Positions 3,641 to 43,248 of a stretch of 43,867 nt of DNA are shown here, one piece after another; the first letter of the stretch is position 1, and each line of letters starts with the position of its first letter. The position numbers and the translations under genes were made by a program. The notes beneath the pieces were generated by a model. That model saw only the letters and a list, made by a program, of their open reading frames with translations, searched no databases and was not told the DNA's origin. Where the stretch lies: positions 1-43,867 of the IMG/VR virus record IMGVR_UViG_3300037089_000376; one strand, 5' to 3'. The stretch is from a virus.

Positions 3641-4729
3641 ATGCAAATATTTTTAGATGCTAATGCGCATCTTCCTCTCCATCCAAAGGCCCTGGAAGCA
3701 TATGTAAGCTTCAATCAATCGATAGCCGGACATGGCCATGCGATGTCTATCTCTATGCCCGGCAGACAGGCTGCTTCTGAAATCGAGACGGCAAGAACCA
3801 AAATTGCCAAATTAATCGGCGCTGAAAATCCCAACCAAATCATATTTACCTCATCCTGTACCCAAGCCTGCGAATGGGGATTGGAATTATTACATGCACA
3901 GAATTTTAGCAAAGTCTATTGTTCTACCCTTGAACATAAATCTGTCTCAATAAAATCTAGAGAACTCTTTGGTAATAACGATCTCTTTGTAAATAAAGAC
4001 GGAATTGTAGCTTGTACATTTATCCCTCCTGAGAAATCTGCTTTCGTATGTATTCATGTACAAAATGAAATTGGTACAATACAAGACATAGAGAATATTA
4101 AGGTTCCATTCTTTTGTGACATGACTCAATCACTTGGCAAAATTCCAGTAAATGTTTCTACAATACCAAATTTGATGATAGGTGTATTTGGGGCTCATAA
4201 ATTTGGTGGCCCAGTAAATGTTGGTTTCATATATATAAGAGATAATAAATGGTGGAGAGAATTTGGAGTTGGAAGCAGATATCACTCAGATCGTACTGGA
4301 ACACCAGATGCTGGAATGGTTCTAGCCACATCCGTAGCTTTGGAAGAAGCTATCAAAACGTTACAGTCCAGATATCACAGGGCCTTGACATTTCGTTCTA
4401 TAATTGAATCAGCGGCTAGATCGATTGGTATTGAGATAATTGGTGAAAATACCAACAGAATTCCGCATGCTACTTTTCTGAATATTGGCAAGAAGATGGG
4501 CCCGCACGTAATGGCCCAACTGGAAGCTGAAGGGATATTTGTAGGTCTTGGATCTGCTTGTGGATCTTTGCACTCAAATACAAATCCAGTCATGACGGCA
4601 TTAGGGTATGGCGGCAGCTCCCAAGACAATCTTCGAATCTCCCAGTGGGGAGATTATGGAGAGCGAGAAGCCAGGATAGTGGCTCAAGCCCTGATTAAGT
4701 ATTGTCCAAAGCCTGATATATTCCAATGA
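3641..4729 (+). CDS. Cysteine desulfurase-like PLP enzyme (NifS/IscS class)
   Basis: A 362-residue class V aminotransferase-fold protein resembling NifS/IscS, which take sulfur from cysteine as a protein persulfide and release alanine. The landmarks are in order: His99 in STLEHKSV, Asn142 in QNEIGTIQDI, Asp160 and Gln163 in CDMTQSLGKIPV, the PLP lysine Lys187 in GAHKFGGP, RTGTPD at 218-223 matching the family RSGTxN site, and the persulfide Cys307 in GLGSACGSL. The length is slightly below the usual 380-400. All key residues are present, so an active enzyme is likely. The start is ATG 3641, without a clear Shine-Dalgarno. The HNH gene follows after one base. It may feed a sulfur-modification or Fe-S pathway, but no acceptor protein is encoded in the window. 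Confidence 0.85.
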   Translation: MQIFLDANAHLPLHPKALEAYVSFNQSIAGHGHAMSISMPGRQAASEIETARTKIAKLIGAENPNQIIFTSSCTQACEWGLELLHAQNFSKVYCSTLEHKSVSIKSRELFGNNDLFVNKDGIVACTFIPPEKSAFVCIHVQNEIGTIQDIENIKVPFFCDMTQSLGKIPVNVSTIPNLMIGVFGAHKFGGPVNVGFIYIRDNKWWREFGVGSRYHSDRTGTPDAGMVLATSVALEEAIKTLQSRYHRALTFRSIIESAARSIGIEIIGENTNRIPHATFLNIGKKMGPHVMAQLEAEGIFVGLGSACGSLHSNTNPVMTALGYGGSSQDNLRISQWGDYGEREARIVAQALIKYCPKPDIFQ

Positions 4730-9469: not shown

Positions 9470-10318
9470 ATGCCCAAAAAATATTCTTTTAATAAGAGCT
9501 TTTTCTTAAGTGATTCTGAACAGGTGTTTTATTGGGCAGGATTTATTGCCGCTGATGGTTGCTTGAGGAAAAGAGGAAATACATATGAGCTATCTGTTTG
9601 TCTTGCACAAAAAGACAAATATCACATTGAGAAATTTAAACATGATATTGGTGCTAATCATCCTATTATAGAGCGCATACAAAGAGATTGTAGGGCTGGG
9701 TTTAAAGATAGCGCTAAGGCTCAAATTTCTTTGTATTCAATGCGTTTTTTAGGTGATTTATATAGATTTAATATTACACCAAGAAAAACCAAAATATATA
9801 CTTTCCCTGATTGGCTGGTTAATCATGAATTGTGTCATCATTTCATGAGAGGTTATTTTGATGGAGATGGGTGCTGGTCTTTTATGACATCTAGGAAAAC
9901 CCCACAATTAAAATTTGCCGTTCTTGGTACGATACAGTTTTTGAAGACATATCAATCTATACTGTTGCAAAAATGCAATTTGTCATTGACAGCAATTTGT
10001 TCTGTTCCAGGAGCTAGCAAACTTTCGTATGGGGGCAACGGTAATTCTGTAAAAATTAGAGATTTTTTATATAAAAACGCAACGGTATTTTTACAGAGAA
10101 AATTTGATTTGGTTAGTAATATTAATATTGCTATAAATACACGAATAAAAATTACACCAGAACTTCTAATTAATAAGATGTTAGAGTTTGGAAGTCAAAA
10201 TAAGATAGCAAAAGATATTGGATATTCTAAAACTCACATAAGTAGGAATGTGAAAAAATTTGATATTGTTAACCAAATGATGATTGCAAAAGCAAATTAT
10301 GTGGTGGTTTATGGTTGA
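9470..10318 (+). CDS. LAGLIDADG homing endonuclease, shorter paralogue
   Basis: A 282-residue protein with YWAGFIAADG (21-30) and FMRGYFDGDG (125-134), clearly related along its length to the 7713 product. It lacks the N-terminal helix-turn-helix segment but keeps the C-terminal one (QNKIAKDIGYSKTHISRNV). Its DNA is visibly more AT-rich than the structural genes around it. No Shine-Dalgarno precedes ATG 9470. Its last bases overlap the start of the next gene at 10311, so insertion or fusion near that junction is possible. Likely a free-standing homing endonuclease. Confidence 0.82.
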   Translation: MPKKYSFNKSFFLSDSEQVFYWAGFIAADGCLRKRGNTYELSVCLAQKDKYHIEKFKHDIGANHPIIERIQRDCRAGFKDSAKAQISLYSMRFLGDLYRFNITPRKTKIYTFPDWLVNHELCHHFMRGYFDGDGCWSFMTSRKTPQLKFAVLGTIQFLKTYQSILLQKCNLSLTAICSVPGASKLSYGGNGNSVKIRDFLYKNATVFLQRKFDLVSNINIAINTRIKITPELLINKMLEFGSQNKIAKDIGYSKTHISRNVKKFDIVNQMMIAKANYVVVYG

Positions 10319-17700: not shown

Positions 17701-18801
17701 CAACTTAGAGCTGTTCTAAAGAATACCGGAGCGCAATTCTTCGACGCAACCCATCTAAACTTTGTAGAGTCGCTGACATTCCAGGAAATTGTAGACAGCA
17801 GAAAAGATCTTGTAATTATTGCAAAGGCCATAGTTACAATTAGTAGTGCGTCTGTGGTCGTAACCGATGCTAGAAGGTTTGTTGTAAACCAAGATCTCGG
17901 ATCATATACTTATGATATTTCTGGCAGCAGCAATGTCAATTTTGAGAGTACGGAGTCTTGGAATAATTGGATAAGTGAATATGCTGGCTTTATTAGTCCT
18001 GATTTTACAACCGGCTTTTACAATCTTTTCTGCAACGGAACCGCCCAAGTCAATGGCTTCTTCCATGCGATTAACGATGCCACGATCGATGGCGGGACCA
18101 GTGGCACGCACAAGAATCTATACATTGGACAATTTGTTGACACTGAGATTGCCGGCGCTTGTCAGTTCTCTGGCGGATCGTTCGCAGTAGACGGACCGGC
18201 AACATTCAATAGTGCAGCTGTATTATTCAATGGCGGAAACTCGGGAACTCACGGGACGGTAACGCTTGGGTCTCATACAGACATGCTTATCAATGGGTTT
18301 TTTGCCTCTCAGGTAAATACAGTCATAGGTGCTAGCGGTATTTCGCCAGGCAGTATGACTGTTTGGGCGACCGGAACGTTCAACGGCACGCAGACTTTCG
18401 ACGGAGTCACAATAAATAATGCAAGTGAGACGCATAAAGGAACTGTAACTATCACTGGTTCAGGACAATTTATCAATGCATCTCCTACGATTCAAGCTGG
18501 CGTATTCGCGCAAACTCATATGCATTTCACGGCGAGTGGGTCGATACCACCTACGGTTCGATATGTAACTGCCGATATTACATCTGGCTTTGTTAAGCTA
18601 GACGATACCGGAATGATTGCCGGTGTGGTAATTTCTATAATAAATCAACACAACACAACACTTGAAATAAAGAATCCAGACGAGAGTCGGAATTGCTTGA
18701 TTGATGCAGATCCCGGAGCTGGAGCGACTCGCCCTTGGGTTGATATGATGTGGGACGGAAGTGAGTTTATTGCTCTTCGATGGGCAGGGACGCTTAACTA
18801 A
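14701..18801 (+). CDS. Very large tail fibre or appendage protein
   Basis: A 1366-residue protein starting behind GAGAAG. The N-terminal 240 residues are helical with coiled-coil-like stretches (about 100-135 and 180-205) and include HPASAISVDASGF (211-223), as in the 12963 product. The middle is mainly beta-structured. A region around 1130-1290 has repeated turns (GGTSGTHK, GGNSGTHG, ASETHKG) that resemble a beta-helix. The C-terminus ends in a compact beta domain finishing WDGSEFIALRWAG, a form common at the tips of phage structural proteins. It overlaps the convergent lipoprotein gene by 4 bases. Fibre or baseplate-appendage function is inferred. Confidence 0.65.
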   Translation: MINYPAAIDNDRTIIRIDDNLSELGTQAINQLRDAVFAIEKTLGINPQGSMSSVDDRISVLIGPDGSPNAAALAAVGLVTLPISDNQVGTNAGIKETKLALSYSTASLNTAITAAQSQLTLVQNDLADEDTNLLTHISGGALLVDHLTLARHVASHIDLNAVPVDSRDTYSWTGLLDINGHLRSATQVAEALLEINNELVGHENATIALVHPASAISVDASGFTQIPRTTTNVQAAITYIDNIEDLSAGVDRATLNANGVPRTARIQDLANDGYTVNVVPLTPVQVNLSEPSQLAPNDSINNGDDVINFTPDNTNFVFDSQFTNVEPGDILRVNYGNGIAAEYEIVAVRFTSGVEWAVRINSNNLFDVSDGYQAYARIDRPNFDRDTWGVYAAAGVVPGITQSSINSIILGSPRGAVAVGIGFDPNKIDANHYNLYLRLYPSGNSGVFFDLPAIDVSGNHGATPGYYNLDIIVEATNKKFRAIGYNYRLIAFNQQGEFGLMLADDYNGVSFSIISGQINTSTGNLEQGSYILNVVGDATDQYDALGLGSYRSGFATPVMSRAGIAVPYPSSIVAANYSTLIISPVGNRNAVVNGDRRDALAKPRFTEGNGYWPAAITNITNDVPDNTQKVTYSISLDLATENIAPGKTIVVQPTDPTSTDIQNYGRFIIDSVSFSCTGSGQTNITVFNSIHATASPTPLSLGTQVNIYLSDDSVMFNLGNMLGADGSDDPSDYHHYHEVFVNDIGKSVAVERARMPQSNTGSISSLVGVGNIGLLSGWRIRRVSPKLKGYRSINPAVPAGATDFRHYIWLKIQNYNATTGEFDIFMYNMDFSSSGQIARGKKNHPVRVYDETFVNFIDIEFREESSAPGTTIPTGYVAIELFPSLSENDEYFAVAGVSHNGKNFGSITDLREFGTLSEDNFTDSAIKFIQAGERYLHANGIVRGFASQGFGINNYQLKFTGGLALVNGAFVPMDAMSVNIPVLAAATSTVEHFICVTETGQLRAVLKNTGAQFFDATHLNFVESLTFQEIVDSRKDLVIIAKAIVTISSASVVVTDARRFVVNQDLGSYTYDISGSSNVNFESTESWNNWISEYAGFISPDFTTGFYNLFCNGTAQVNGFFHAINDATIDGGTSGTHKNLYIGQFVDTEIAGACQFSGGSFAVDGPATFNSAAVLFNGGNSGTHGTVTLGSHTDMLINGFFASQVNTVIGASGISPGSMTVWATGTFNGTQTFDGVTINNASETHKGTVTITGSGQFINASPTIQAGVFAQTHMHFTASGSIPPTVRYVTADITSGFVKLDDTGMIAGVVISIINQHNTTLEIKNPDESRNCLIDADPGAGATRPWVDMMWDGSEFIALRWAGTLN

Positions 18802-19199
18802 GGCACTCCGCATATTCCGTTGACTGGGCTGGAAAGCTCACTTCCGGAAGGCAACACATACCCGGCACAATGGACGCACACTCCCTGGTAGCATCCAACT
18901 CCCGTCTGAGTTTGGTCACAAGCGCCAGTTGACAGACACGCGCACCCCATTTTACCTATTGTGCAAGTTGTAGCTCCGCCAGTTGCGGCATTGCCACCGG
19001 TTCCGGCATTAGCTGAGCCGCCGGTTACCTGAGCTTGAGCAGACGATCCTCCGGTTCCATTTGGTTGGCCGGCCACACTAATTGTCTGTGATGTGCTTCC
19101 GCCTGTCTCCGGCAGAGGCTCAACATTTGTAGTTGTGCTGGAGCTGCAACCAACGGTTATTATTGCCAAAAGAACCGATGAAATGAATTGTCTGGTCAT
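18798..19199 (-). CDS. Cys-rich phage lipoprotein (moron-like)
   Basis: A 133-residue protein and the only convincing minus-strand gene. It has a basic N-terminus, a hydrophobic stretch and lipobox TVGC with Cys18, so it should be lipidated. Ser at +2 suggests outer-membrane rather than inner-membrane retention. A Gly/Thr/Ser/Ala-rich stalk (about 30-75) leads to a C-terminal domain with eight cysteines (CTIGKMGCACLSTGAC and after), probably disulfide-bonded. AAGGAG and a sigma70-like promoter lie upstream. The gene is more GC-rich than its surroundings. A host-surface role, such as blocking superinfection, is a reasonable guess but not shown. Confidence 0.75.
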   Translation of the reverse strand: MTRQFISSVLLAIITVGCSSSTTTNVEPLPETGGSTSQTISVAGQPNGTGGSSAQAQVTGGSANAGTGGNAATGGATTCTIGKMGCACLSTGACDQTQTGVGCYQGVCVHCAGYVLPSGSELSSPVNGICGVP

Positions 19200-20328: not shown

Positions 20329-22800
20329 ATGAGCGCAGATATTTCGGGTGCGACAAGTGTAGTTCCAGGAACTTACTCAGAAACCAGAACGATTCAGACC
20401 GGTGTTAGTGTACCAGTTGGTAGTCGTATACCAGTTATTATTGGTGAAGGTTTAACAGAGGAAGTTCTTGTTGGATCGGCAAATGGTAAAGGTAACGATG
20501 GATTTGATCCTACCTATACCACAACGAGAGGCTCTGATGGACGTCACTTCCTTTTTGGAAAGGGACAGACCGCCGTAGCTCCAGTTGTTCAAAACAGATC
20601 TCAACTTCTCAAGAATGGTATCACACTAAAAGTTCTTGAGCATACCATTGATAGTGATACTGTACCAAACGGATATGATGCCGAGGTAGACTCTTCAACT
20701 GGAGAGATTCTATTACAGGGCGCTTCGTTAGCAGATCAGGGTGGCGCGTTCTATTTGGCAGCCGGAAGCAATACCGGAAATGGAACGATTTCTGGCCTGA
20801 CACTTGTTGACGTGAATGCCCCACCAGAAACCTGGACGATTCGTTGCTCAAGTGTTCGTCGAACTTCAGGAAATGTAGTTGTAGATGGTTATGCCAAGTT
20901 TATTGCTCGTGGCTCGGTAAGTGGAATCTTACTAGATGGTTATGGAAACCAAGTCACCTGGCAGTCAAATGGAACGGTTGTTTCGAATGGAGTTTTGAGT
21001 TTTGCGATTTCCGAAGGGGCTACCGCATTCATTGAAGGAGACAACTTTGTTGTTGAAGTTCAAAGTGGGACTTTGGTCCGTGGAGACACCCTTACTGCTC
21101 GTTATATTTCTTGGGCATCGCTCAATGACCCAGAGTTCTTCTCTGATCTAAATGCAGTAATCGCAAAGCATGGCCAACCATCGCTTACAAATAGGGTGTC
21201 GTTGGGTGCTCAATTAGCATGGGCAAACGGAACTCCTGGTATCTATACAATTCAAGCAAAGCCATCTGTTCCAAGACGCCTATCATATAGTCTTGTTGAA
21301 TCCGCTGATGGGTTTAATGATAGCGATGACGTTACGTTCGTTCTTCCCCTGAACGTTACTCCAGATGTCGATGATGATATTCATTTCTTTGTAACTGATC
21401 CGGTTACCAAGGTAGAGAAACAAATTATCCCCAATAAGGAGCCTTTCTATACAGCTGACCCGGCCACATTTTTAGACAGCTATGCGTACTCTTACACGGT
21501 TGTTGAAGAGTCTTCTGTGCAGAAAGCTGGGGCTGATGGTGTTCTGGTAAGCGATGGTTATTTGGTAGATGGTTATTATGCCGATCTATCAAGTGCCACG
21601 GTTGCTTTTGGTCTTGCCGATCTTGCGGGCACTCGTTTATTGGTAATATTTGATTCTCTTAACGGAAATGATGGAACTTATATTATTAAGAATATTACAC
21701 AAGATAAGCTACATCTAAAGAGTGCCTCTTCTTTCACAAATGAGACGAGCATTCAGTTTATGGTTGTAGATTCATCTTCTACAAGTGCTCGAATTCTTTG
21801 GACAAGAGATATGGCTCTTACTCTTGGCCAATCATTACGCTGTACTTTGATAGATGCCAAGGACGCTGACTTTTATGATGCAGGATGGTTAGAGGCTTAT
21901 ACGGCTGCAGAAATAATTGATATTGATATGGTTGTTCCTCTGCCAAGCCAGACGATCAGTGCCATTTTCCAAAACGGAAAGGTTCATGTTGAGACGCAGA
22001 GTAATATCCGCAATAAGCATGAAAGGATTTTGTTGATAGGAGCCATTCGGGGACTCACTCCAGATAACGTAATTGGAAACAAGCCTGCTGCGGTTGAAGA
22101 TATTGGTATTCTGGAAGGAATCCAAGGAGCATCAGTTGCAGATATTTTGGCAGGAAATATCGAAGATTTGGCCAATTACAGTGTGCCGCTTGCGTTTGGA
22201 GATTCGTATAGAGTTGTGTACTTCTATCCTGATCAGATTGTTGTTCAGGCCGGGGCTAATAACATCTTTGTTGATGGCTTCTTTATTGCGGCGGCTGCGG
22301 CTGGTTACTTGTCTGGTAATACGCAGATTCAAGAGCCTCTTACAAATAAGAGACTGGTTGGATTTAGCATTCTACGTAACAAGCTATTCTCTCCATTGGT
22401 TGTAGAGAACATTGTAAACTCAGGAATTACTCTACTTACACCTGTTCAGGGTGGAGGTAACGTAATTTGGGGTAAGACAACAGTTGGGTCTCTTGAGCCT
22501 ACCGAAGAGGAAATTAGCATTGTATTCATTCGTGATGATATTTCATTCTCCATGCGTAGGGCTTTTGCCCCATACGTTGGTAGGGCGGAAACTCCAACAA
22601 CGAAAGCAACCTTATTTGCGGTTGCACAATCATTGATGCAGACATTTATTCAGCAGAAGTTGATTACTACTTATGGTGGTTTGACAGTGAATAGGGATGC
22701 GGTTGAGCCAAGGCAGTGGAACGTTACTGTTGCCGTACAACCCGTCTATCCCGTATCATGGATTTTTATATTAATTGGTATTGGAAATCTTGGCGGATAA
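20329..22800 (+). CDS. Contractile tail sheath protein
   Basis: An 823-residue sheath subunit. The C-terminal part is diagnostic. DDISFSMRRAFAPYVGRAET is followed by the helix LFAVAQSLMQTFIQQKLI, a strand with AVEPRQWNVTVAVQPVYP, and a hydrophobic end WIFILIGIG. This is the sheath domain that packs on the tube. The N-terminus (VVPGTYSETRTI) supplies the inter-subunit strand. Residues 149-252 are an inserted module also found in the 10889 product. With insertions, the protein is longer than the roughly 660-residue T4 sheath. It is followed by an inserted HNH gene and then the tube. AGAGGA precedes the ATG. Confidence 0.87.
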   Translation: MSADISGATSVVPGTYSETRTIQTGVSVPVGSRIPVIIGEGLTEEVLVGSANGKGNDGFDPTYTTTRGSDGRHFLFGKGQTAVAPVVQNRSQLLKNGITLKVLEHTIDSDTVPNGYDAEVDSSTGEILLQGASLADQGGAFYLAAGSNTGNGTISGLTLVDVNAPPETWTIRCSSVRRTSGNVVVDGYAKFIARGSVSGILLDGYGNQVTWQSNGTVVSNGVLSFAISEGATAFIEGDNFVVEVQSGTLVRGDTLTARYISWASLNDPEFFSDLNAVIAKHGQPSLTNRVSLGAQLAWANGTPGIYTIQAKPSVPRRLSYSLVESADGFNDSDDVTFVLPLNVTPDVDDDIHFFVTDPVTKVEKQIIPNKEPFYTADPATFLDSYAYSYTVVEESSVQKAGADGVLVSDGYLVDGYYADLSSATVAFGLADLAGTRLLVIFDSLNGNDGTYIIKNITQDKLHLKSASSFTNETSIQFMVVDSSSTSARILWTRDMALTLGQSLRCTLIDAKDADFYDAGWLEAYTAAEIIDIDMVVPLPSQTISAIFQNGKVHVETQSNIRNKHERILLIGAIRGLTPDNVIGNKPAAVEDIGILEGIQGASVADILAGNIEDLANYSVPLAFGDSYRVVYFYPDQIVVQAGANNIFVDGFFIAAAAAGYLSGNTQIQEPLTNKRLVGFSILRNKLFSPLVVENIVNSGITLLTPVQGGGNVIWGKTTVGSLEPTEEEISIVFIRDDISFSMRRAFAPYVGRAETPTTKATLFAVAQSLMQTFIQQKLITTYGGLTVNRDAVEPRQWNVTVAVQPVYPVSWIFILIGIGNLGG

Positions 22801-25074: not shown

Positions 25075-25399
25075 GCACCAATTTATAAGACATCTCATGA
25101 AAACGTTTGGTAAGCCACCAGACGATCCACTGTATGAGAATATTAACGCATACTTAAAGGTATGGTTGTATGAAAGTTGGCTTCATGATCAGGAGTTAGA
25201 GGCTCAGAAGCTAAGAAACCAGGCTATTCTTATTGGATCTTTCTCCAATCTCGAAATGGCTCAAGGAATGATCCGGCAGGAGAATCCAAATGTGCAAGCC
25301 ACAGATTTGGATGAGACCAGCAAGAAAGTTCGTGAGCAAATTCTTGAGGCCAATAAAGTTGGTAAGAAAAAACGCAAGAAGCGCAAGGTGGTTAGCTAA
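25058..25399 (+). CDS. Tail assembly chaperone, second ORF (gpT-like position)
   Basis: The frame is open from 24983 to the stop at 25397-25399, in the +1 frame relative to the preceding ORF. From the candidate shift at 25058 it encodes 113 residues: a helical domain (HQFIRHLMKTFG, AYLKVWLYESWLHDQELEAQ) and a very basic end (KKKRKKRKVV). ATG 24995 and ATG 25097 are possible independent starts, but neither has a convincing ribosome site. By analogy with lambda G/GT, it may be made mainly as a fusion of about 329 residues. It overlaps the tape-measure start by one base. Confidence 0.6.
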   Translation: MVRTPEHQFIRHLMKTFGKPPDDPLYENINAYLKVWLYESWLHDQELEAQKLRNQAILIGSFSNLEMAQGMIRQENPNVQATDLDETSKKVREQILEANKVGKKKRKKRKVVS

Positions 25400-27579
25400 T
25401 GGATGAAACAATTAATCTTGATAATGCCATAAGGTTTGCGGAAAGTCTTGGCGGAAAAGCTAAAGAAGAGGCTATCAAGTGGTTTCAGACCATGAAAGAT
25501 GGTGGCAAAGAAATTGTAAGTTTTGCCACCATCCATAATAAGATGGGGGATGAGGTTACTAAGGCCCTACAGGCAGCTGCTCAAGCCGCACATGAATTGT
25601 TTAACCAATTTTTATCTCTCAGTTCTATTGGTATTGCTGTAAAAGAAGAAACAGGCAAAGCCGTAGCGGGTATTGCGGAAATATTTAAGCAGTCGGATAT
25701 TGGTATTTCAAATGCTGTGATGGGTACTTTTGATCTACTGGGAGTGATTGATAAAAGCATTACTGGAATGGGCAAGTTGGGAGAGTCTGGTCTGGAAGCC
25801 AGCTCAAAAATGACAACTGCCTTCAAGAGTGTTTCTCCAATATTGAACAGTATGTTTGGTAATAATTCCGGGATAATGAATTTTACAAATGCTGTTATCG
25901 AAGGAAGAGATCGTGTAATTAGTTTGGAAAGAGAGTTGATTAATATGGCTCTGTCCCAGGGGCGAGTCGCTGATGTTAGTGATGATTCAGCTAATAGCTT
26001 TAAAGGTATGAATGAATCATATACGGATTACGTAAATATGTCCGTTAAAGCGGCTACGGAAACTGGGCAGACGGTTGCCTCTATGATGGATCTGAATAAA
26101 GCGCTTTCTGCAATTCCAGGATCGTTGAGTAGTGCAGAGGAAACTGTAAAGACTTCTAGATTGGCAGCCGCTGCCGGAATGCAGCAATTGGATGTAGCAA
26201 AACAATTAGCGGATATGTATACGCGCCTTGGTACTAGCGAGAAAGATGCCCTCGAAAATATGGCTTATATGCACGACAAGGCTGGTGATTCCAAGCTTCG
26301 ATTTGAGGCTTTCAATCAGACAGTGTTGAGCATAGCTGGTAGTTTCAAGATGTTAGGCGACAATACTAGTGCAACTACCAATTTTGTGAATGCTTTTGAT
26401 AAGGCCTTCCAAGATAGCAAGATTAGTCCAGAGGCTATGAAGGAAGTAATTACGGACATTGGTACTGGCATTGAAAAAATGGATGTGGCCAAGCAAGCAT
26501 TTATATCGGGAGCTTCGGGCGGGCCTGGTGGTTTAGCTGGAGCTGCCCAAATTCAAGAGCTTATGGCAACTGGTCATATGGATGAAGTAATTAAAAAGAC
26601 AATGACCGCAATGCAAGCTCAATTTGGAGGGCCAATTGTTACTAGGAAAGATGCTGCTAATGACCCAGCTCTTGCTGGTGAATGGTTTAAGCAAACACAG
26701 TATTTAACCCAAACAGCTGGTATTGCAAAAGATGAGAAAGAGGCTAATCGAATTTTAGAGGCCATGAAGAGTGGCGTAATGGATATGTTTAAGCCAGGTG
26801 CCGCCGAGGAAGAAAAGGGATCGGCTCTGGATAGGCAACTTGGAAGAGGGGCAAGTCTTCAAAAAGAAACCCAAACTACATTGATGAGTATTCATCAAAC
26901 GTTGGAAGCTAGCCGTCTGAGACAAGATCAGTTTTATAGCAAGGAGTTTGGGGATGTAGACAAACAATTGCATATAATGGCCGAGTCTATGGGTTTGGTT
27001 CGCGATAATAGAAAAGGCAGTGGCGCGGAACACGCGGGGGTTCTGGCCCTTGCTAGGGGCAATGAAGATGCTGCATATCAAAAGCCAGACTGGAATGAGA
27101 TGACGGGTAATTCTTTCAGTTTGGGAGGTGTTGGCGAAAAGGCCAAACATGAGTTTGACTCTTTCTTGACTAAAATGTCTGGTGGCAAACCAGCTGCCGC
27201 TGGCAAAGCGCCTGCAGATACCACCATGATTCGACATCATCAGCCAGTGACTACTGCTGGAATTTCGCCGGACGCCACCATGATGCGACAGCAGCCACCA
27301 CCAGGAACAACCGCTGGACTTCCACATATAGCCCCAAGTCATAGGTCTGGTTTGGGATTGCCAGAACTTCCAGATGTTCACAAGATGACATTACCAACAC
27401 TACCAACATTAGGGGAGAATGAAACAGCCGCCCAATCAATTGAACATAAGTTTAAGGACATGAATCTCAATCTAACTATTGATTTGGGCGATCATAAGAT
27501 AATCAATGAAATGATTAGAGCCGAAATACAGAAAGAAGATCAATTAAAAACTCAACAACAGGCAACCGGAATTAGATAA
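25399..27579 (+). CDS. Tape measure protein
   Basis: A 726-residue, mostly helical protein starting in the TAATG overlap after the chaperone ORF, with AAGGTGG upstream. Long amphipathic and Ala-rich helices dominate residues 1-600, with moderately hydrophobic stretches around 85-140. Near residues 603-642 it has two short repeats (DTTMIRHHQPVTTAG and DATMMRQQPPPGTTAG). It ends in a helix rich in Glu and Lys. Tape measures occupy the tube and set its length; at about 1.5 angstrom per residue this would suggest a tail near 110 nm. Order and composition support the call; no enzymatic domain is evident. Confidence 0.8.
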   Translation: MDETINLDNAIRFAESLGGKAKEEAIKWFQTMKDGGKEIVSFATIHNKMGDEVTKALQAAAQAAHELFNQFLSLSSIGIAVKEETGKAVAGIAEIFKQSDIGISNAVMGTFDLLGVIDKSITGMGKLGESGLEASSKMTTAFKSVSPILNSMFGNNSGIMNFTNAVIEGRDRVISLERELINMALSQGRVADVSDDSANSFKGMNESYTDYVNMSVKAATETGQTVASMMDLNKALSAIPGSLSSAEETVKTSRLAAAAGMQQLDVAKQLADMYTRLGTSEKDALENMAYMHDKAGDSKLRFEAFNQTVLSIAGSFKMLGDNTSATTNFVNAFDKAFQDSKISPEAMKEVITDIGTGIEKMDVAKQAFISGASGGPGGLAGAAQIQELMATGHMDEVIKKTMTAMQAQFGGPIVTRKDAANDPALAGEWFKQTQYLTQTAGIAKDEKEANRILEAMKSGVMDMFKPGAAEEEKGSALDRQLGRGASLQKETQTTLMSIHQTLEASRLRQDQFYSKEFGDVDKQLHIMAESMGLVRDNRKGSGAEHAGVLALARGNEDAAYQKPDWNEMTGNSFSLGGVGEKAKHEFDSFLTKMSGGKPAAAGKAPADTTMIRHHQPVTTAGISPDATMMRQQPPPGTTAGLPHIAPSHRSGLGLPELPDVHKMTLPTLPTLGENETAAQSIEHKFKDMNLNLTIDLGDHKIINEMIRAEIQKEDQLKTQQQATGIR

Positions 27580-28547
27580 TGTCTATATTAGATTCGATTA
27601 CAGATCGGGCTTCCCAATCATTTCATACTGCGCAGGGTGCAGTGGCTGGAAATTCTGCCGATCCGCCGGGATTCACTAATCTGGCCTCACCCCCATCTCC
27701 GAGTGGAAGCCAAGTTCGTCAAGCTCAAATTCCAAACTATCGCTTAGCGACCGCTACCAGAAATATGGTTCGCTGGTTTTTGCCAGAGCTTGGTATCGTT
27801 GAGATGTATATCAATCCACAGGGTATCAAATATACAGAAACCAAACACATCGGAGCGCCTATCAGGACTCGTGGTGGATACATGGTTCAGTATTGGGGCG
27901 AAGAACTTGGTAAAATTTCGATCAGTGGTACAACGGGATCTTCTGGTGTCGAAGGAATCAATGTTATCTATGATATTTATCGCAATGAACAAGTTGCATT
28001 TGACCCAATAGCTTTAGCGGCCGAAGCTGCGAAAGATCTGGCGTCTTTGAGCAATGGTGTGTTTAGCGGTATTAAGGGAGCAGGTACATTGCTTGGTGGA
28101 ATTGGAAAAGCCGTTGGGGTTGGGGTCAACTCGCTATTCGATCAGGTAAATAATGTAATCAAGACAGGCAATGTAGATCCATTACAACCACGCCCAACAT
28201 TGGCGTCTATTGCATTCCAAACAGAAATGTATTGGTCAGGCTGGGTATTTCGTGGCTATTTCACTTCGATGACAGTAAACGAGGCGGCTGATAAGCTTGG
28301 ACAATTTGATTATGGTTTGGAATTTACAGTAACGCAGAAGCGCGGTCTTCGTTTGAATTTCATGCCTTGGCATCGCAGCGCTGTTAATGGGCCATCGAAT
28401 TCAGATCCATCGTTTGGTACCCCTTATTCTTTTTCAACTCTGATGGACCAAACCCCAAAGAGAAGTGTTAGTCCTGCTCAGCAAGCAGTTTTTACAACCG
28501 CAGTACGCTCTTTGGATAGTGCCTTACAGAGTTCTAGACCACTGTGA
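27579..28547 (+). CDS. Baseplate or tube-proximal protein after tape measure
   Basis: A 322-residue protein sharing a one-base overlap with the tape measure. The core has EMYINPQGIKYTETKHIG and QYWGEELGKISISGTTGSSG, a beta pattern seen in proteins joining tube to hub. A Gly/Ala-rich insertion (about 155-195, GIKGAGTLLGGIGKAVGVGV) separates it from FRGYFTSMTVNEAADKLGQF, which ends in a strand typical of tail tube-like folds. It probably forms part of the baseplate hub or distal tail. No LysM or lysozyme motif is visible. The functional name is inferred from position. Confidence 0.6.
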   Translation: MSILDSITDRASQSFHTAQGAVAGNSADPPGFTNLASPPSPSGSQVRQAQIPNYRLATATRNMVRWFLPELGIVEMYINPQGIKYTETKHIGAPIRTRGGYMVQYWGEELGKISISGTTGSSGVEGINVIYDIYRNEQVAFDPIALAAEAAKDLASLSNGVFSGIKGAGTLLGGIGKAVGVGVNSLFDQVNNVIKTGNVDPLQPRPTLASIAFQTEMYWSGWVFRGYFTSMTVNEAADKLGQFDYGLEFTVTQKRGLRLNFMPWHRSAVNGPSNSDPSFGTPYSFSTLMDQTPKRSVSPAQQAVFTTAVRSLDSALQSSRPL

Positions 28548-35721: not shown

Positions 35722-37851
35722 ATGGTTTGCAATCCAGCTGATACGAACATTACTATTGGACCACCGGGACCTAGCCCGCAGATCCCCGGCCTTGGCTTGC
35801 CATTTTCAATACCCAAGATTCCATTTGGTGATCTGTCTCTTCCGGATGGCATTCCAGAAGATTTGATAAATCTGATTGAAACAATATTTGCCATGTTCCC
35901 GGCCGGTATAAAATTTCAGCCAAACACAGATGCAATGACCAAGGGCATTTGGGATGCATTGGCTAGTTTGTTCAATCAGATAGCCCCATTCTTAGGGGTT
36001 TACAAATTTATTCAAGCGTTGCTGAATATGATACTTTGTATCATTGATGTTTTCTGCGCTTTGATGAACCCATGGTCAACCCTAAGGGCTATTCGTAGGT
36101 TGTTTAAGCGGTGTTTGCCAGATTTCTTATCTATGTTTCCATGGTTGGCATTGCTAATCATGATCCTAGCATTGATATTGCTTATAATTGCCTTAATAGA
36201 ATACATCATTCAAGTAATTATTGCATACATTAAACAGATACTTCATAACCTCAAGGTTCTTTTAAGGGCGATAACGGTGCATGATACCGACGCCATCTTA
36301 GCGGCGGTTCAGAAGATATCGTTTGTGTTATGTCTAATTGAACAGCTATTCACAATTCTAATGGGCATTAGTGCACTGCTGGCTATTATTCGGCCTCTCA
36401 TGGGTATTCTTGGACGTTCTGTTTGTAGTGGTGGAGATAGTAATGGCAATGGTGCTGAAGACTGTTGTACCCCAGATTTTTGCCCACCATTTATTCGTAA
36501 TAATCCGGATGGTTTGTTTCAAACTAGCGGGCGTCTAATTTATCAAAGTGAAATAGATCCTATTATAGTAGATTTCGATAGGTTGTTTTCATTAATCAGA
36601 ACTCCAACCCCTCTTGTCCTAAGGCCACAGCGATGGCAACTTGTTGACGATCACCCAACTGAATTTAAGTTTTTGGATATCATTACGCCGTCGCCACAGT
36701 ATGGTTTCATTTATTGGCCAAATAATGATGTGTTTGATCAAAAGTCAGCGCTAATACGTGTGCCATATAAAGTGGACATGACCATACTTATTAATCCTAG
36801 TCATTTTGGTAATCCTTTTGATTCTGGAAAAGAACGTTACATGAGTATTCAGGATATAATTGTAACGACAAAGCCAACCGAATATCCCTTGTCTTGGAAT
36901 AATAATCCTGATACCAGCGTTACCTCTGGGGCTTTGAGTTTGGTTGGTGGTTCTGTATTTGAGATTACACAAGACGGCTATGTTCCATATCACATCAATG
37001 GAGTTCAAGCAACTCTTCAGACGCTGATAACCAAGCCAGTGAGTAGTATGGCTGATTTTCCGTCGCATAATGATGGTTACAATTTCTTAGATGTTAAGTA
37101 CAAGCTAAAAGTTAATCACGAAGTATTGATTCAATATGGACTTATTGGGTTGATGTGTCAGCCAGATACCGCCTCAGAGTCTGCGGTATTAAATGCCGAG
37201 TACAACGACATGAGAAGTGTTCTGGACAAGGTCGGGCCACTACCAGATGTTGATGGCACGATAGCCTGTTTGACACAAGCTCTTGCGAAGTTCCGTGGGA
37301 ATTTAAACGAAGATACTGCAGCAATATTCCAAAACGAAATTACTAGCTGTCTTACTTCTTTGAAAAATCAATCGTTAGACTTTTATGCTACTGGTACAAT
37401 TGCGGCAACTGACCGATATTCAAGCAGTTTTTCTCTATACCCAAGTGTTCAATTTATCAAACATGATATCCGGGTAACGGTTCAGCTTAGGGATAAGTCT
37501 GGCAATCAATTGGCGGTGAATATTGGTGCTGATGCTGCTACTGGTCTAAGTTCTTTAATAAAGGCAGTTCCGACATTTGGTGCCATTTCTAGTTTCACTT
37601 ATGATGGATACGGAGATTTTGTTGCCTCACTTACCAGTGATAGGGCTGGCACCGGGCAAATAACTGCTTATCTTAATAATGAATCTATTGCAACAGTTAT
37701 TAATAGAGATAGTGATACTTTACCGACAGAGATTGTAGATAACGTTCTAACCTATGAGTTTGTTGATAAGGTATCTTATTCGTATCGTACAGATGGTGAT
37801 TATTACAAGCAGAGATTCGGCGATACTGATGTTGCCGAGGATGGTACATAA
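35722..37851 (+). CDS. Baseplate-region protein with long hydrophobic helices
   Basis: A 709-residue protein behind AAGGTGA. It starts with a Pro/Gly-rich stretch (GPPGPSPQIPGLGLPFSI), followed by strongly hydrophobic segments at about 90-115, 138-170 and 200-230. The middle one is a nearly unbroken run of Leu and Ile. A Cys-rich part follows (GAEDCCTPDFCPP, 244-256), then beta-rich domains. Near 575-680 lies an Ig-like segment (HDIRVTVQLRDKSGNQLAVN to GTGQITAYLNNES). Such segments are rare in baseplate proteins. They suggest a virion protein that inserts in the host membrane during injection or one assembled as a buried helical bundle. Family unknown. Confidence 0.65.
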   Translation: MVCNPADTNITIGPPGPSPQIPGLGLPFSIPKIPFGDLSLPDGIPEDLINLIETIFAMFPAGIKFQPNTDAMTKGIWDALASLFNQIAPFLGVYKFIQALLNMILCIIDVFCALMNPWSTLRAIRRLFKRCLPDFLSMFPWLALLIMILALILLIIALIEYIIQVIIAYIKQILHNLKVLLRAITVHDTDAILAAVQKISFVLCLIEQLFTILMGISALLAIIRPLMGILGRSVCSGGDSNGNGAEDCCTPDFCPPFIRNNPDGLFQTSGRLIYQSEIDPIIVDFDRLFSLIRTPTPLVLRPQRWQLVDDHPTEFKFLDIITPSPQYGFIYWPNNDVFDQKSALIRVPYKVDMTILINPSHFGNPFDSGKERYMSIQDIIVTTKPTEYPLSWNNNPDTSVTSGALSLVGGSVFEITQDGYVPYHINGVQATLQTLITKPVSSMADFPSHNDGYNFLDVKYKLKVNHEVLIQYGLIGLMCQPDTASESAVLNAEYNDMRSVLDKVGPLPDVDGTIACLTQALAKFRGNLNEDTAAIFQNEITSCLTSLKNQSLDFYATGTIAATDRYSSSFSLYPSVQFIKHDIRVTVQLRDKSGNQLAVNIGADAATGLSSLIKAVPTFGAISSFTYDGYGDFVASLTSDRAGTGQITAYLNNESIATVINRDSDTLPTEIVDNVLTYEFVDKVSYSYRTDGDYYKQRFGDTDVAEDGT

Positions 37852-39488
37852 TGGTGGTTGTTACCAAAGATACATGGTTTAATAATATTGGCGATCACTC
37901 TCCAAAAGATCCACTGGATGATATCCGAGCAATTGATTTGGATATCGGTGATTTGGTGGCTAAATTCCTGCGCCCGATTGATTTGTTCAGGAGTCATGTT
38001 TCTCCAGATGTAAATGGAGATTTGGTTCAGCCCAATCTATCTACGTCTACTTCGCCCACCGAAAGCAGATGCCATGCATTTTACAGAATGCTAGGATTGC
38101 CAACAATATCTCCAGATGGAAACCTTGTTAGTTCTGGATTCCCTCTCAAAGATCAAGATCGTCAAAAAAGCATTAATGACAATATACCAGATGGTGTCAA
38201 AAAGGCCATTTCTGATAGGGAAAATGGTGCTCTGTATAGAACAAATCTATTTTCGGTACGCAATGCCGACACCTCTGTTTTTGGGCTTTCGCTAGCAACT
38301 CCCAATGGTCAGCGCAAATTTGCCGTCGATATGGGATCATTAGATGACATTACACTTACACCACAAGCTATTCCGGCCCGAACCCAATACATTAATAGAT
38401 TTTTTCAACATGCAGATAGATCGGCAATAACTAATAAGTTTGAAAGCGTATCACATCAGCTTGCTCCACTTATCACTGATTTAGTTATTGCATCAAATGT
38501 AGAACCAAAATCAGGGTCTAATAGCGTGTTGGTGGGCCAGTTATTTCTTGATAAGAAAGACCTGGAATACGAGTCTGGTAAATATGCAAAGCGCCCCGGT
38601 TTAGAATTTATCATACGAACAAAGTTGCGCGAAAGTAATGTTTTGCAAAGTTTGGTTACGGCTGCGGCAAGTGTATTGCCCAACATCAATACACAGGCAG
38701 GCTTAATTGGTGTTGGAATTAGTGAGGATGATGCTGCCAGGCTGTTTCAAGAAGGATTGATAGACGTATATACAGTGAGTGATTTGTTTAAAACGTATAA
38801 GGGTCTTGTAAATGTATATTACAATGCAGTAAAAGCTATTGCGGATATTGGCAAAGATATTATTTGGATTCCTATGCCAAATGAAGGCGGGCCAGAATCT
38901 GGATCTGTGGTGAACTCTAGTTTTGTTGTGCCAAGCTACTATCTTGACTCTTGGGAGATTGAACGAAGGCTTTCTGAATTAAAAGTGAAGTCTATTCTTG
39001 CAAAGACGCAAGTTAATATTGGAACAAATGCCGACAATTCATCTTTGGTGTATAGTGACTTCACAATCTCTGAGTTTAGTAATGTGGCTAATACTTTTGA
39101 GAGTGACTTGGCGGATGAGGATTCAAAAAGATCTTCATTAGAAGCACAGGGCAGTGATGCCTTGAGAACAATTGAAATTATTGGTGGGGAAGTAAGCGGG
39201 CTTGGCCTGATCGATATCATTGCTATTTACCTTTCCTTATGGGCGCTGGATGTTCCAACGCTACTTAATTTGATTGATGATGCCGCAGCTGCGCGATTGA
39301 ATGCCATTCCTGATCTTGCAAATGGCGCAACCAAGAATCGGGTTAATAAGCCTGGAGAAGCGGCGGCTGCTTATGAAACACTAACATCGGCAGTTTCCAG
39401 TTTGCTGCAATTTGGTGATTATGTCTTTGATCGTCTAAAGGGTTCTCCGAAGGATGGTGGAATTGGAGATGTGAGAAATAAGGGATAA
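37851..39488 (+). CDS. Putative baseplate structural protein
   Basis: A 545-residue protein with a one-base overlap with the preceding gene, placed between hub/spike and the gp25-like wedge gene. It begins MVVVTKDTWFNNIGDHSPKD and has a hydrophobic stretch near residues 450-475 (LGLIDIIAIYLSLWALDVP) that could be a buried helix. The rest is mixed alpha/beta with no catalytic motif or signal peptide. The close coupling to the hydrophobic protein upstream suggests they act together. No family is recognised, and a baseplate role is inferred from context. Confidence 0.55.
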   Translation: MVVVTKDTWFNNIGDHSPKDPLDDIRAIDLDIGDLVAKFLRPIDLFRSHVSPDVNGDLVQPNLSTSTSPTESRCHAFYRMLGLPTISPDGNLVSSGFPLKDQDRQKSINDNIPDGVKKAISDRENGALYRTNLFSVRNADTSVFGLSLATPNGQRKFAVDMGSLDDITLTPQAIPARTQYINRFFQHADRSAITNKFESVSHQLAPLITDLVIASNVEPKSGSNSVLVGQLFLDKKDLEYESGKYAKRPGLEFIIRTKLRESNVLQSLVTAAASVLPNINTQAGLIGVGISEDDAARLFQEGLIDVYTVSDLFKTYKGLVNVYYNAVKAIADIGKDIIWIPMPNEGGPESGSVVNSSFVVPSYYLDSWEIERRLSELKVKSILAKTQVNIGTNADNSSLVYSDFTISEFSNVANTFESDLADEDSKRSSLEAQGSDALRTIEIIGGEVSGLGLIDIIAIYLSLWALDVPTLLNLIDDAAAARLNAIPDLANGATKNRVNKPGEAAAAYETLTSAVSSLLQFGDYVFDRLKGSPKDGGIGDVRNKG

Positions 39489-39502: not shown

Positions 39503-39931
39503 ATGTCATTTGATTTGAAGCTTTTTGGTGGAGATTTAGTCATCCAAAATGGGGATTTGGCTATTGTAGAGGATACTGACAAACTAACTCAGGATATTTT
39601 GAAGTTAGTTAGTACTCAACTGGGGTCTAATCCATTCTTCCCGGCATATGGATCTCCTATAAGTCAGGCCTTGATTGGGACTACTGATATAGATTTTGCA
39701 CAAGACGTTGCAACCCAGCAGCTTCGGGCCAGCATTGAGCGGCTGAAGGATCTTCAACAGGATCAGATAAAGAATAATCAAATTGTAACGGCGGAAGAAC
39801 AAATTTCAGCAATCCAAAACGTCTTTGTTACTCAGGCTCGGGATGATCCTCGATATTACTTCGTGAATTTGACAGTTATCAATAAGGCTTTTCGTAGTGT
39901 GCCCATTTCCTTTGCCGTAGTTACTAGCTAA
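39503..39931 (+). CDS. gp25-like baseplate wedge protein
   Basis: A 142-residue protein of the GPW/gp25 family. The signature region is DTDKLTQDILKLVSTQLGSN followed by PFFPAYGS (residues 24-51), typical of T4 gp25 and P2 gpW-type baseplate proteins that initiate sheath polymerisation. The C-terminus ends in beta strands (YYFVNLTVINKAF), also expected. In the family this protein binds the gp6-like wedge, whose gene follows after 56 bases. ATG 39503 comes directly after a GTATATATAC stretch. Only a weak TTGAG serves as ribosome site. Confidence 0.78.
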   Translation: MSFDLKLFGGDLVIQNGDLAIVEDTDKLTQDILKLVSTQLGSNPFFPAYGSPISQALIGTTDIDFAQDVATQQLRASIERLKDLQQDQIKNNQIVTAEEQISAIQNVFVTQARDDPRYYFVNLTVINKAFRSVPISFAVVTS

Positions 39932-39987: not shown

Positions 39988-42900
39988 ATGGCACGGGTTA
40001 GGACGGCAAATGATATCGTTCTCGGAAGTATAGATTTTTACAGAACTGCGCAGCCACAACTTGACCTACAGCCAGGTCAAGTGGCTCGTGATCTACTTAT
40101 TGACGGCCCAGCTGTTCAACTGAGTAGTTTGTATGAAGAATTGCAGAGTGTGCAATCAGCTCAATCGTTATTCCTATCATTAGGCTCAGAGCTGGATGCC
40201 TTGGCGTCTAACTTTGGAGCATCTCGTAAACAGGGATCTCCGTCAATTGGAACTGCCATTTTGACTTTCAATGCCATTGAGGCTGATATTCCAATCAATG
40301 CTGGTGGGGTTGTAACAGCAAGCAATGGAGCTTCATTTACGGTCATAAACTCCTTTACGGTAGCTGTGAATAATAAAAATACTTATCGGGCTACCGCCTC
40401 AAAGTATGCAGCGGCCTTGGCTTTTGCAGCAATCACCGATCAATATGCCGTTGAGGCTCAGGTAACAGCCACATCCACGGGAAGCAATGGAAATATTTCC
40501 AGTTATTCATTGAACAGCACGACGATTCCTGGGGTTTCAAACGTTACAAACGCAGCTTCTTTTCAGGGTGGCTCTTCAGCAGAAAGTGATTCTACTTTCA
40601 AGCGTAGGCTTCTTGGCATTTTTAGCGGAGCAAATACTGGAACGGCTCTTGGGTACAAGAATACAATCATAGCGGATCCTGATGTTATTGATGCCTTGGT
40701 AGTTGGCCCAGGTGACCCGTTGATGATACGCGATGGAACTCAGGTATACACTGCGCCAGATGGCACGAAGACTATTGTCTCTGAAGGAACAGGCGGCAAG
40801 GTAGATCTTTATGCTTATGGTTTCCGTCTTGTTGAAATTATAGATGGATTTGTATACTTTGACCATAGTAACAAAGATGACCCAACTGATCCGTCTAATG
40901 ATTTTGTATTGGGGCAAATTGTCACAGATGCCAACAAGACCGTTTCTAGGAAGAGAATTGACGATATCAACAATCAACAACTTCCAAACCAGCCAGTTAC
41001 CAACATCATTAGTATTACCGGATCGTCTAGTGGCTCTAATTTTGGGCTGAAGAGTGTAGACGCTTCTGGAGTTGTATCTGGAAACTACGAACTTCTGCGT
41101 GACACCGGAGTATACGCTGGCAGCCCATGGGGATTTGATCGTCTACATTGGGTTGATGATAGAATTAGAGACTTATCAGAAGATATTACTAAGGGTAAAT
41201 TCAATAGTCAGGATTCTACCAACTACTCTGATGTTACTTTGATTAGTGCGGTCAATCAAAACATCCAAATTGTCAACGAAAATAGTACGGTAACCCCTGC
41301 AGATCGATCGTCAATTCAACTATCTCACGCGCCAGTCACTGCGGTTACCCGAGTTTTCAACCAGACAACCGGTGAGCGCTACATAGTTACAAACCAGAAC
41401 CCAGATGGTGGAACGCAAAACACAACTGGGCGTATTACAATTTCAGGATCAACTCTTCCAGCCGTAAGTGATATTCTTCAAGTAGATTATGTTTGGATTT
41501 TCAATTACGATCAAAATTGGGATTTTGATAATAAAGTATCCTCTGATAACATTCGTGATGTTGTTGACAGCATTGATTGGGGATATTCTAATGTTGTACG
41601 CAGAGAAGAGGTTGTGGTAACCGGAACCACCATAAAAACCGTTACAGTAACTCATCCTGTAAATGCGGTGGCGTCTATTAATGTGTTCACCGATGGTTAT
41701 GGTGTTGTGCAGCTTATCAGTAATAGGCTAGCTGTCGCTGTTGCCGCTATAGTTTCAAATGTAGTCTCTGTGGTTGAATCTTCTAACAATGCTGAAGTTT
41801 ACAATACAGGAACTAAAGACGGAAGCTTTAGTGGATATACTGTTTACCTACCAACAGACACAACTGCGCAAGTTGGAGATCTTGTAAACGTAAGGTACAA
41901 CGCGCTTGATCAATTTATGAGCAGTGGTATTTCTGGAAGCTTTAGTGATAATGTAATCACCCTACCATCATCCACCAGTGTAATTTCGGGTACGCTCGTT
42001 GAGGTTAATTATCTAGCCAATATCAATCAACTTGTTCCATCTACGGCATTATCTGCGTTACCAATCCATAGAAATGGAAACGGCTTCTATTTTGGAACGG
42101 GCAGTGTATTTGGAACCCAACCAACAACTCACATCTATTATCCAAGCGCACCATCTCCGGTACCAAATATAGCACCACAAATTGAACTCAATCTTCGAAA
42201 GGCCCCAACCCGGCTGAAGCTTACGATTGCCGGAACCATATCTCCTGGGGTGGTCACCGTTTCTGGCACAACGATTCAAGGAATATTTGATGGAATTTTC
42301 ACGGCCACTTCGAATGGTCTTATTCAAGATCTTTCTTCATTGATACGATCATCTTTGGGGCTGAATAGTAACCAATCAATCCCATCAAATGTTGGTATAA
42401 TAAGTTTGGTTGGTTTCGAGAAAATAGAGTTATCTGGTACAGAGGTAATTTCTGTAGACCATGTTTATGATGTGTTTGGCTACTCCATTAGAGATAATCG
42501 CTTTTCTAAGTTTGAGGCCACTAGTAGCCCAAGCCTAACCGCCACTCAAATAGCAATCCCCAATACGGTTGGTAACAATGATAACTTGCCGAAGATTGGT
42601 GATAAAATTAGAGTTACTTTCTATATTGACAAGACAGGTGATATAGAAAATGTATCATTTAGCAAGAGTGGAACCCTGTATACGCAGAAGAGATTTGCTT
42701 TTGTTGATGTTGTATCGATTTCTAGTGGTTTTACTTCCACGGCATCACAATCTGCAACACTTTCTATTGCGCCACAGAACCAACCGGTACAGGGCACCAG
42801 ATATACTGCATATTATGATTACTTAGCCCCAAAGCCAAATGAAAGAATCACCATACACTACAACGCAAACCAAGTAATTACCGACAATACTTTGAATATT

Positions 42901-43248
42901 GAAAGAACGCGCCCGATTGGGGCGGATGTTTTGGTTAAGGCGGCCGTACCAATTCTAGTTAATATTACCTTGGCAATTGTTGTTTCGGCTGGTTTTGAGA
43001 ATTCTAGCGCTGTTGTTCTTCAAAATGTAAGGGATGCGATTACTAACTCTCTAAACTCTACGGCCCTGGCCACTACAATAGACGGTAATGATTTTGTTAA
43101 TGTAGCTTATGGCGTGAGTGGCGTGGACAGGGCAAGAGTTTTGGCATTCAACGCAGATGGGGCGGCTGGACAAGTATTAAGTATCACAGCCCAGAGCAAT
43201 CAGTATATTCAAGCAAATAATGTTTTAGCTCAAATTGAGACAAGATAA
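39988..43248 (+). CDS. gp6/baseplate J-like wedge protein
   Basis: A 1086-residue protein. The N-terminus (ANDIVLGSIDFYRTAQPQLD to PGQVARDLLIDGPAVQLSSL) and the region near residues 195-245 (AESDSTFKRRLLGIF, GTALGYKNTIIADPDVIDAL) match baseplate J/T4 gp6 proteins, which form the wedge ring that contracts with the sheath. The canonical J proteins are about 300-660 residues, so several inserted beta domains enlarge this one. A late segment (VLVKAAVPILVNITLAIVVS, ENSSAVVLQNVRDAITNSLN) resembles the J C-terminal domain. TTGAGGT precedes the start. Confidence 0.8.
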   Translation: MARVRTANDIVLGSIDFYRTAQPQLDLQPGQVARDLLIDGPAVQLSSLYEELQSVQSAQSLFLSLGSELDALASNFGASRKQGSPSIGTAILTFNAIEADIPINAGGVVTASNGASFTVINSFTVAVNNKNTYRATASKYAAALAFAAITDQYAVEAQVTATSTGSNGNISSYSLNSTTIPGVSNVTNAASFQGGSSAESDSTFKRRLLGIFSGANTGTALGYKNTIIADPDVIDALVVGPGDPLMIRDGTQVYTAPDGTKTIVSEGTGGKVDLYAYGFRLVEIIDGFVYFDHSNKDDPTDPSNDFVLGQIVTDANKTVSRKRIDDINNQQLPNQPVTNIISITGSSSGSNFGLKSVDASGVVSGNYELLRDTGVYAGSPWGFDRLHWVDDRIRDLSEDITKGKFNSQDSTNYSDVTLISAVNQNIQIVNENSTVTPADRSSIQLSHAPVTAVTRVFNQTTGERYIVTNQNPDGGTQNTTGRITISGSTLPAVSDILQVDYVWIFNYDQNWDFDNKVSSDNIRDVVDSIDWGYSNVVRREEVVVTGTTIKTVTVTHPVNAVASINVFTDGYGVVQLISNRLAVAVAAIVSNVVSVVESSNNAEVYNTGTKDGSFSGYTVYLPTDTTAQVGDLVNVRYNALDQFMSSGISGSFSDNVITLPSSTSVISGTLVEVNYLANINQLVPSTALSALPIHRNGNGFYFGTGSVFGTQPTTHIYYPSAPSPVPNIAPQIELNLRKAPTRLKLTIAGTISPGVVTVSGTTIQGIFDGIFTATSNGLIQDLSSLIRSSLGLNSNQSIPSNVGIISLVGFEKIELSGTEVISVDHVYDVFGYSIRDNRFSKFEATSSPSLTATQIAIPNTVGNNDNLPKIGDKIRVTFYIDKTGDIENVSFSKSGTLYTQKRFAFVDVVSISSGFTSTASQSATLSIAPQNQPVQGTRYTAYYDYLAPKPNERITIHYNANQVITDNTLNIERTRPIGADVLVKAAVPILVNITLAIVVSAGFENSSAVVLQNVRDAITNSLNSTALATTIDGNDFVNVAYGVSGVDRARVLAFNADGAAGQVLSITAQSNQYIQANNVLAQIETR

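Follow-up and report, generated by a model that had tools for sequence, protein, structure and literature searches.

How the DNA of contractile phages crosses the inner membrane of the host is poorly defined, and the hydrophobic part in this step is usually ascribed to tape measure proteins (TMPs). A stretch of viral DNA of 43,867 nucleotides (IMG/VR virus record IMGVR_UViG_3300037089_000376, here referred to as the window) raises the question of whether a different tail protein could play this part. Its baseplate region contains a gene, here designated MEM, whose product had been predicted to carry three membrane-like helices and possibly an Ig-like end; a membrane-inserting injection pore carried in the virion and an internal helical bundle were offered as explanations. 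We analyzed the gene, its relatives, its neighbours and its predicted structure, and compared the protein with other systems.

The MEM gene and the baseplate module

The open reading frame is confirmed as a real gene by its ATG at 35722, closely preceded by the ribosome-binding site AAGGTGA, by its TAA stop (37849-37851), which shares bases with the ATG of the following gene, p545, and by homologues with 23-84% identity. The tail module of the window consists of the sheath, a tube-position gene, chaperone-position genes, the TMP, a tube initiator, a hub-position protein, a spike-like protein, MEM, p545, a gp25-like protein and a gp6-like protein. MEM lies after the spike, and the slot between the tail assembly chaperones and the hub is held by the TMP. 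The gap between spike and MEM is just 8 bases, so no gene lies between them in the window. The coordinates of these genes and of the parts of MEM are given in Table 1.

Table 1. Tail genes of the window and parts of the MEM protein.
Feature	Coordinates	Strand	Basis
Tail sheath (contractile tail)	20329-22800	+	
Tape measure protein, 726 aa, phrog_4704, without strongly hydrophobic segments	25399-27579	+	
Tail-tube-initiator-like protein, 322 aa, matches phage G gp184	27579-28547	+	
Large hub-position protein, 1709 aa	28560-33689	+	By position
Spike-like protein, 674 aa	33689-35713	+	Profile match to Tunturi_5 gp253; spike role by position
MEM, 709-aa baseplate-module protein with conserved hydrophobic helix domain	35722-37851	+	ORF and homologues
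MEM N-terminal Pro/Gly-rich tether, residues 1-45	35722-35856	+	Conservation, disorder prediction
MEM helix domain, residues 76-228	35947-36405	+	Column conservation, fold model
MEM hydrophobic segment 1, residues 89-121	35986-36084	+	Kyte-Doolittle
MEM hydrophobic segment 2, residues 131-174; strongest membrane-like helix	36112-36243	+	Kyte-Doolittle
MEM hydrophobic segment 3, residues 191-231, with invariant Lys198	36292-36414	+	Kyte-Doolittle, alignment
MEM cysteine cluster C235, C248, C249, C254	36424-36483	+	Alignment
MEM beta-rich middle, residues about 261-475	36502-37146	+	Fold model
MEM helical linker, residues 481-562	37162-37407	+	Fold model
MEM C-terminal Ig-like domain (Invasin_D3/Big_1-like), residues about 564-690	37411-37791	+	Pfam, fold
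p545, 545-aa partner gene, start overlaps MEM stop	37851-39488	+	
gp25-like baseplate wedge / sheath initiator	39503-39931	+	
gp6/gpJ-like baseplate wedge protein, matches phage G gp188	39988-43248	+	

Relatives were collected from IMG/VR in two censuses. A profile of seven MEM members gave 77 loci in the first, and a profile of the helix domain alone gave 97 loci in the second, of which 80 were kept and 79 were examined for neighbours. Counted by name, the two censuses together comprise about 120 contigs. The order TMP-initiator-hub-spike-MEM-p545-gp25-gp6 is held in nearly all sufficiently long loci; with few exceptions MEM comes after the spike gene, and each of the 79 loci examined in the second census has a homologue of spike, gp25, gp6 or p545 next to it. 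About 120 contigs show MEM in synteny with spike and gp25/gp6, which bears out its assignment to the baseplate region and strongly supports its membership of the baseplate module. Moreover, p545 adjoins MEM in most relatives, and in one locus (L061) the two genes are inverted together with the rest of the baseplate operon collinear, which suggests that they form a functional cassette.

The relatives lie on contigs of up to 481 kb, and jumbo phages are therefore among the carriers. Bacterial genomes yielded a single match, on a contig binned with a Chitinophagales MAG; this match is consistent with a phage contig, and the binning gives a weak hint of Bacteroidota hosts. In a divergent branch, at the same place in the operon, the helix domain is found inside proteins of 1.5-2.7 kaa, and these large-protein loci (L075, L080, L083 and L106-L144) have the gene between spike and gp25. 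The idea that hub domains had moved into the 2.5-kaa versions was discarded, as the hub shortening is a locus-end artefact and no hub match was found inside them.

The MEM family appears to be undescribed. No cultured homologue was found in INPHARED by tblastn with five different queries, PHROGs gave no match for the protein of the window, Pfam gave nothing above cut-off (the Ig-like end matches below threshold only), a sequence search of the PDB returned nothing credible, and no paper on the family was found in a literature search.

Other genes were seen at the border of spike and MEM. HNH-type homing-endonuclease-like genes, recognized by eye, lie exactly between the two in four loci (L014:3506-4315, L022:9085-9999, L040:8941-9999 and L065:8720-9493), which makes this gap a recurrent HNH-type insertion site beside conserved virion genes. 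L018 carries there a TnpA-like transposase ORF (9511-9954, IS200/IS605 type by eye) and also a 402-aa ORF on the minus strand. Immediately upstream of MEM, about 26 loci (for example L039:9616-9969) encode a soluble, acidic protein with a length of about 118 aa. It is absent from the window, is located elsewhere in three other jumbo-phage genomes and matched no known family.

Hydropathy and conservation of the helix domain

Hydrophobic segments were defined by a 19-residue Kyte-Doolittle mean of at least 1.6. The stretches predicted at 90-115, 138-170 and 200-230 were recovered at 89-121, 131-174 and 191-231. The peak value, 3.36 at residues 141-159, was attained in 2 of 10,000 composition-preserving shuffles. 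The total coverage of 118 residues is unexceptional on its own (P = 0.064 against shuffles), so it is conservation, and not the single MEM sequence, that bears the claim of a hydrophobic domain. This domain is present in all 65 distinct homologues of the first census, with peak hydropathy of 2.33-3.68 (mean 3.15), and the second census, which overlaps the first, shows it in 79 of 79 loci (minimum peak 2.24). The mean peaks of the module neighbours are 1.06 for the TMP (41 orthologues), 1.08 for the initiator, 1.35 for the hub, 1.17 for the spike, 1.80 for p545, 1.04 for gp25 and 1.72 for gp6.

The helix domain is also the best-conserved region of MEM. The frequency of the top residue per column is 0.58-0.72 in this domain versus 0.48-0.51 in the beta/Ig parts, and the remotest relatives align solely over it. 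Twelve positions are invariant in the 52 aligned members (C112, P117, P133, F135, P140, K198, C235, C248, C254, G270, C479 and F680). All branches have in common the core C-I-I-D/E-x-x-C-A-L-x-N-P-F/W, followed by A..RL and a conserved Pro; in MEM of the window the signature CIID-x-x-CAL-x-NP occupies residues 106-117, within hydrophobic segment 1. Polar or charged residues are conserved in segments 1 and 3 (D/E109, K198, E/Q207 and K/R224), and the linker between helices 1 and 2 is positively charged, with 5 K/R versus 1 D/E. The two flanking features described at the outset are likewise present: the Pro/Gly-rich start is conserved and predicted to be disordered, with Cys3 kept in 90%, and the hydrophobic part is followed by a cluster of cysteines at 235, 248, 249 and 254, each conserved in 96-100%, which may be a metal or disulphide site.

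The segments differ in how membrane-like they are. At 141-159 every face of the helix is hydrophobic, with a moment of 0.18 and a mean Eisenberg hydrophobicity of 1.06, and the stretch reaches about -6 on an approximated insertion-energy scale; by the same approximate measure segments 1 and 3 are borderline transmembrane. Residues 140-170 are the sole unambiguously transmembrane-like part of MEM. The original observation of three hydrophobic stretches is confirmed, and it is refined by this finding and by the model described below, which has four long helices. The membrane-like character of MEM is supported by the hydropathy kept in every homologue and by the uniformly hydrophobic stretch at 141-159 within helix 140-186.

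Predicted structure of MEM

An AlphaFold2 model of the monomer, built from the alignment of 52 sequences, reached a pLDDT of 79.9 and a pTM of 0.65 and replaced a poor model from 7 sequences (pLDDT 59.5). In it, a disordered N terminus leads into the four long helices, at 76-113, 117-138, 140-186 and 189-228; after these come a beta-rich middle, the helical linker and a C-terminal beta domain, in agreement with the beta domains anticipated downstream of the hydrophobic part. As a model of the monomer, it does not discriminate between an exposed helix 140-186 and one that an oligomer buries.

In a Foldseek search against the PDB, MEM matched the Ig-like domains of InvE, invasin, intimin and filamin (E about 3e-4 to 3e-3). 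These alignments span about 120-130 columns in an output without query coordinates, and the match is placed at the C terminus on the basis of the alignment length together with a Pfam match at 584-656. This Pfam match (Invasin_D3/Big_1) is sub-threshold, with 23.2 bits versus a gathering cut-off of 33, and the best member of the family (E 2e-7, 31.8 bits) is also below the cut-off. Thus the sub-threshold Pfam matches and the fold agree on the suspected Ig-like end, and the C-terminal region has its fold in common with Invasin_D3/Big_1 domains, but such a domain is a common accessory one and does not define MEM. For the whole protein or the helix domain, no credible match was obtained in a fold search of the PDB and BFVD.

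Comparison with other phage and secretion systems

Hydrophobic segments in TMPs have been linked to infection. The first hydrophobic region of the TP901-1 TMP is essential for infection (PMC5099701), and the diffocin TMP (CD1366) has five predicted transmembrane helices that are proposed to form a membrane pore (PMC10996793). Like MEM, the TMPs of TP901-1, P2 (gpT), T4 (gp29) and diffocin have hydrophobic helical segments in a tail protein, for which insertion into the cytoplasmic membrane and a DNA or ion channel have been proposed (PMC5099701; PMC10996793). Unlike them, MEM carries its helices in a separate gene after the spike, fused to beta/Ig domains, and its phage has a hydrophilic TMP of its own besides. 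By the hydropathy measure used here, a strongly hydrophobic segment is present in P2 T and T4 gp29 and absent from the TMP of the MEM lineage. Strong segments are likewise missing from the TMPs of phage G, Mu and lambda, so a hydrophilic TMP demands no replacement pore, and the argument that it proves replacement by MEM is weakened. The combination of a hydrophilic TMP and a hydrophobic MEM is compatible with a division of labour. We also considered whether MEM itself is a homologue of TMPs. Five members match phrog_305 (best 8e-6), yet in a control against TMP profiles reversed helix domains matched at similar E-values, whereas locally shuffled ones did not. Because the reversed sequences score equally, the similarity reflects the pattern of hydrophobic helices and not ancestry, and this candidate was rejected.

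In the phi29 tail knob, hydrophobic loops of gp9 lie inside the knob as long as the virion is intact, then exit and become a hydrophobic helix barrel (PMC6542822). gp9 is a structural tail-tip protein with hydrophobic segments, as is proposed for MEM; by contrast, MEM belongs to a contractile tail and has, in place of a loop, a hydrophobic helix bundle of about 150 residues. No relation in sequence or fold was found between the two.

The T6SS offers another parallel in the effectors with prePAAR and transmembrane domains (TMDs), whose TMDs are thought to help cargo cross the target inner membrane (PMC7773334). Here too, with Eag chaperones, hydrophobic helices are encoded beside the spike of a contractile machine. 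The prePAAR motif AARxxDxxxH (as defined in PMC7773334) is absent from the MEM sequence, Pfam gave no match to a PAAR domain and no toxin domain was recognisable in MEM. Nor is an Eag (DUF1795) chaperone encoded next to MEM at the locus; the protein of about 118 aa was rejected for this role, as it does not match DUF1795, the window lacks it, and three other genomes encode it at a distant site. By the tests made, none of the precedents from TP901-1, diffocin, phi29 and T6SS is homologous to MEM.

The nearest cultured baseplates found are those of Bacillus phage G, Phrappuccino and Tunturi_5, which have the initiator, gp25, gp6 or part of the spike in common with the window. In phage G, the initiator gp184, the gp25-like gp187 and the gp6-like gp188 match the module of the window by profile or tblastn, but neither MEM nor p545 has a counterpart in its baseplate module, which is also devoid of strongly hydrophobic proteins. 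Profile comparison found MEM and p545 in none of these three baseplates, and by this absence the pair looks like a two-gene addition peculiar to the uncultured lineage.

Other features of the window

The proteins of the window contain 30 copies of the tripeptide Asp-Gly-Tyr (DGY), about 12 times the expectation, and a milder excess is seen in relatives. Examples in structural genes are at positions 6216, 6237, 11522, 20884, 37072, 37603 and 41692. The tripeptide is encoded by many different codon combinations, which indicates selection at the protein level. MEM has three copies, of which 451-453 and 628-630 are invariant in the seven closest members. In addition, a minus-strand ORF near the structural genes (18798-19199) has a signal-peptide/lipobox-like start (MTRQFISSVLLAIITVGCSS) and a Cys-rich end, and its product looks like a lipoprotein. 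A collagen-like tail fibre with long Gly-Asn-Gln repeats is encoded at 204-2261, and an ORF like aminotransferase class V or cysteine desulfurase, judged by eye from its N terminus, lies amid the structural genes at 3641-4729.

Proposed role of MEM and alternative explanations

The gene, its conservation, synteny, hydropathy and predicted fold, and its absence from the compared baseplates are results of the analysis. The initial interpretation is partly supported, and that of MEM as a membrane-active tail-tip protein is plausible and on firmer ground than the sequence alone could give it, with the membrane step as the part that we infer. In our proposal, which we regard as evenly balanced, MEM is a virion protein at the spike/hub that would insert in the host inner membrane on contraction and help form a DNA channel. 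It would be built into the contractile tail tip together with the spike/hub, with the N-terminal helix domain as a membrane-insertion module made in advance. Either self-association or p545 and the spike/hub would shield its hydrophobic helices in the virion, and the Pro/Gly tether and the Cys cluster would fasten the domain to the tip. Once the sheath contracts and the spike/hub passes through the envelope, the helix domain would be freed and enter the inner membrane, where several copies could make or line the DNA channel; the beta/Ig-like part would remain docked on the baseplate. Presence in the virion, insertion and pore formation seem to us about as likely as not, and shielding and stoichiometry, like the channel function itself, are likewise inferred.

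The main rival is a buried helical bundle, which we consider rather unlikely. The helix domain would then be a permanently buried oligomer in the hub/spike complex, a plug or core that never meets a membrane, with helix 140-186 central in a trimer or hexamer and amphipathic helices around it. The long helices (38-47 residues) exceed what a bilayer needs and are confidently predicted, all homologues are located in the baseplate module, and the invariant polar residues in helices 1 and 3 could pair as buried salt bridges, so that the charged residues there fit a bundle about as well as a pore. However, a polar face is lacking in the helix at 141-159, and all other proteins of the module fall well short of the hydropathy of MEM; soluble virion cores seldom need such hydropathy.

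A clearly less probable alternative is that MEM acts as an inner-membrane protein of the infected cell, as a platform for baseplate assembly or in superinfection exclusion, and is absent from the virion or incidental in it. Host membrane-insertion pathways target early, strongly hydrophobic helices co-translationally, and such a helix within the first 160 residues of MEM would be a good target; the positive linker between helices 1 and 2 also fits. No signal peptide was seen in MEM, however, and its large beta/Ig-like part and fixed place among virion genes in about 120 contigs better suit a structural role. Least probable of all is a mainly host-binding or envelope-contact baseplate protein, whose Ig-like end binds and whose hydrophobic region merely anchors, for although Ig-like domains are frequent on phage surfaces and this one matches invasin/intimin-type folds, conservation centred on the helix domain is odd for a binding protein and the 1.5-2.7 kaa branch retains that domain in another setting.

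Returning to the membrane-active reading, MEM has its membrane-like domain as a distinct part of the baseplate module, conserved to a high degree across roughly 120 contigs, those of jumbo phages among them. Tentatively, and with somewhat less confidence than in the role of MEM itself, we suggest that a major uncultured jumbo-phage lineage may have moved the inner-membrane channel from the TMP to a dedicated spike-adjacent baseplate protein, which would be carried as an insertion module assembled beforehand, with p545 as its partner. Residues 76-230 are a compact, expressible fragment for testing membrane activity, and the core C-I-I-D/E-x-x-C-A-L-x-N-P-F/W can serve as an annotation marker for this lineage. 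If true, a channel in a dedicated MEM/p545 baseplate unit would be a new DNA-entry architecture for contractile phages.
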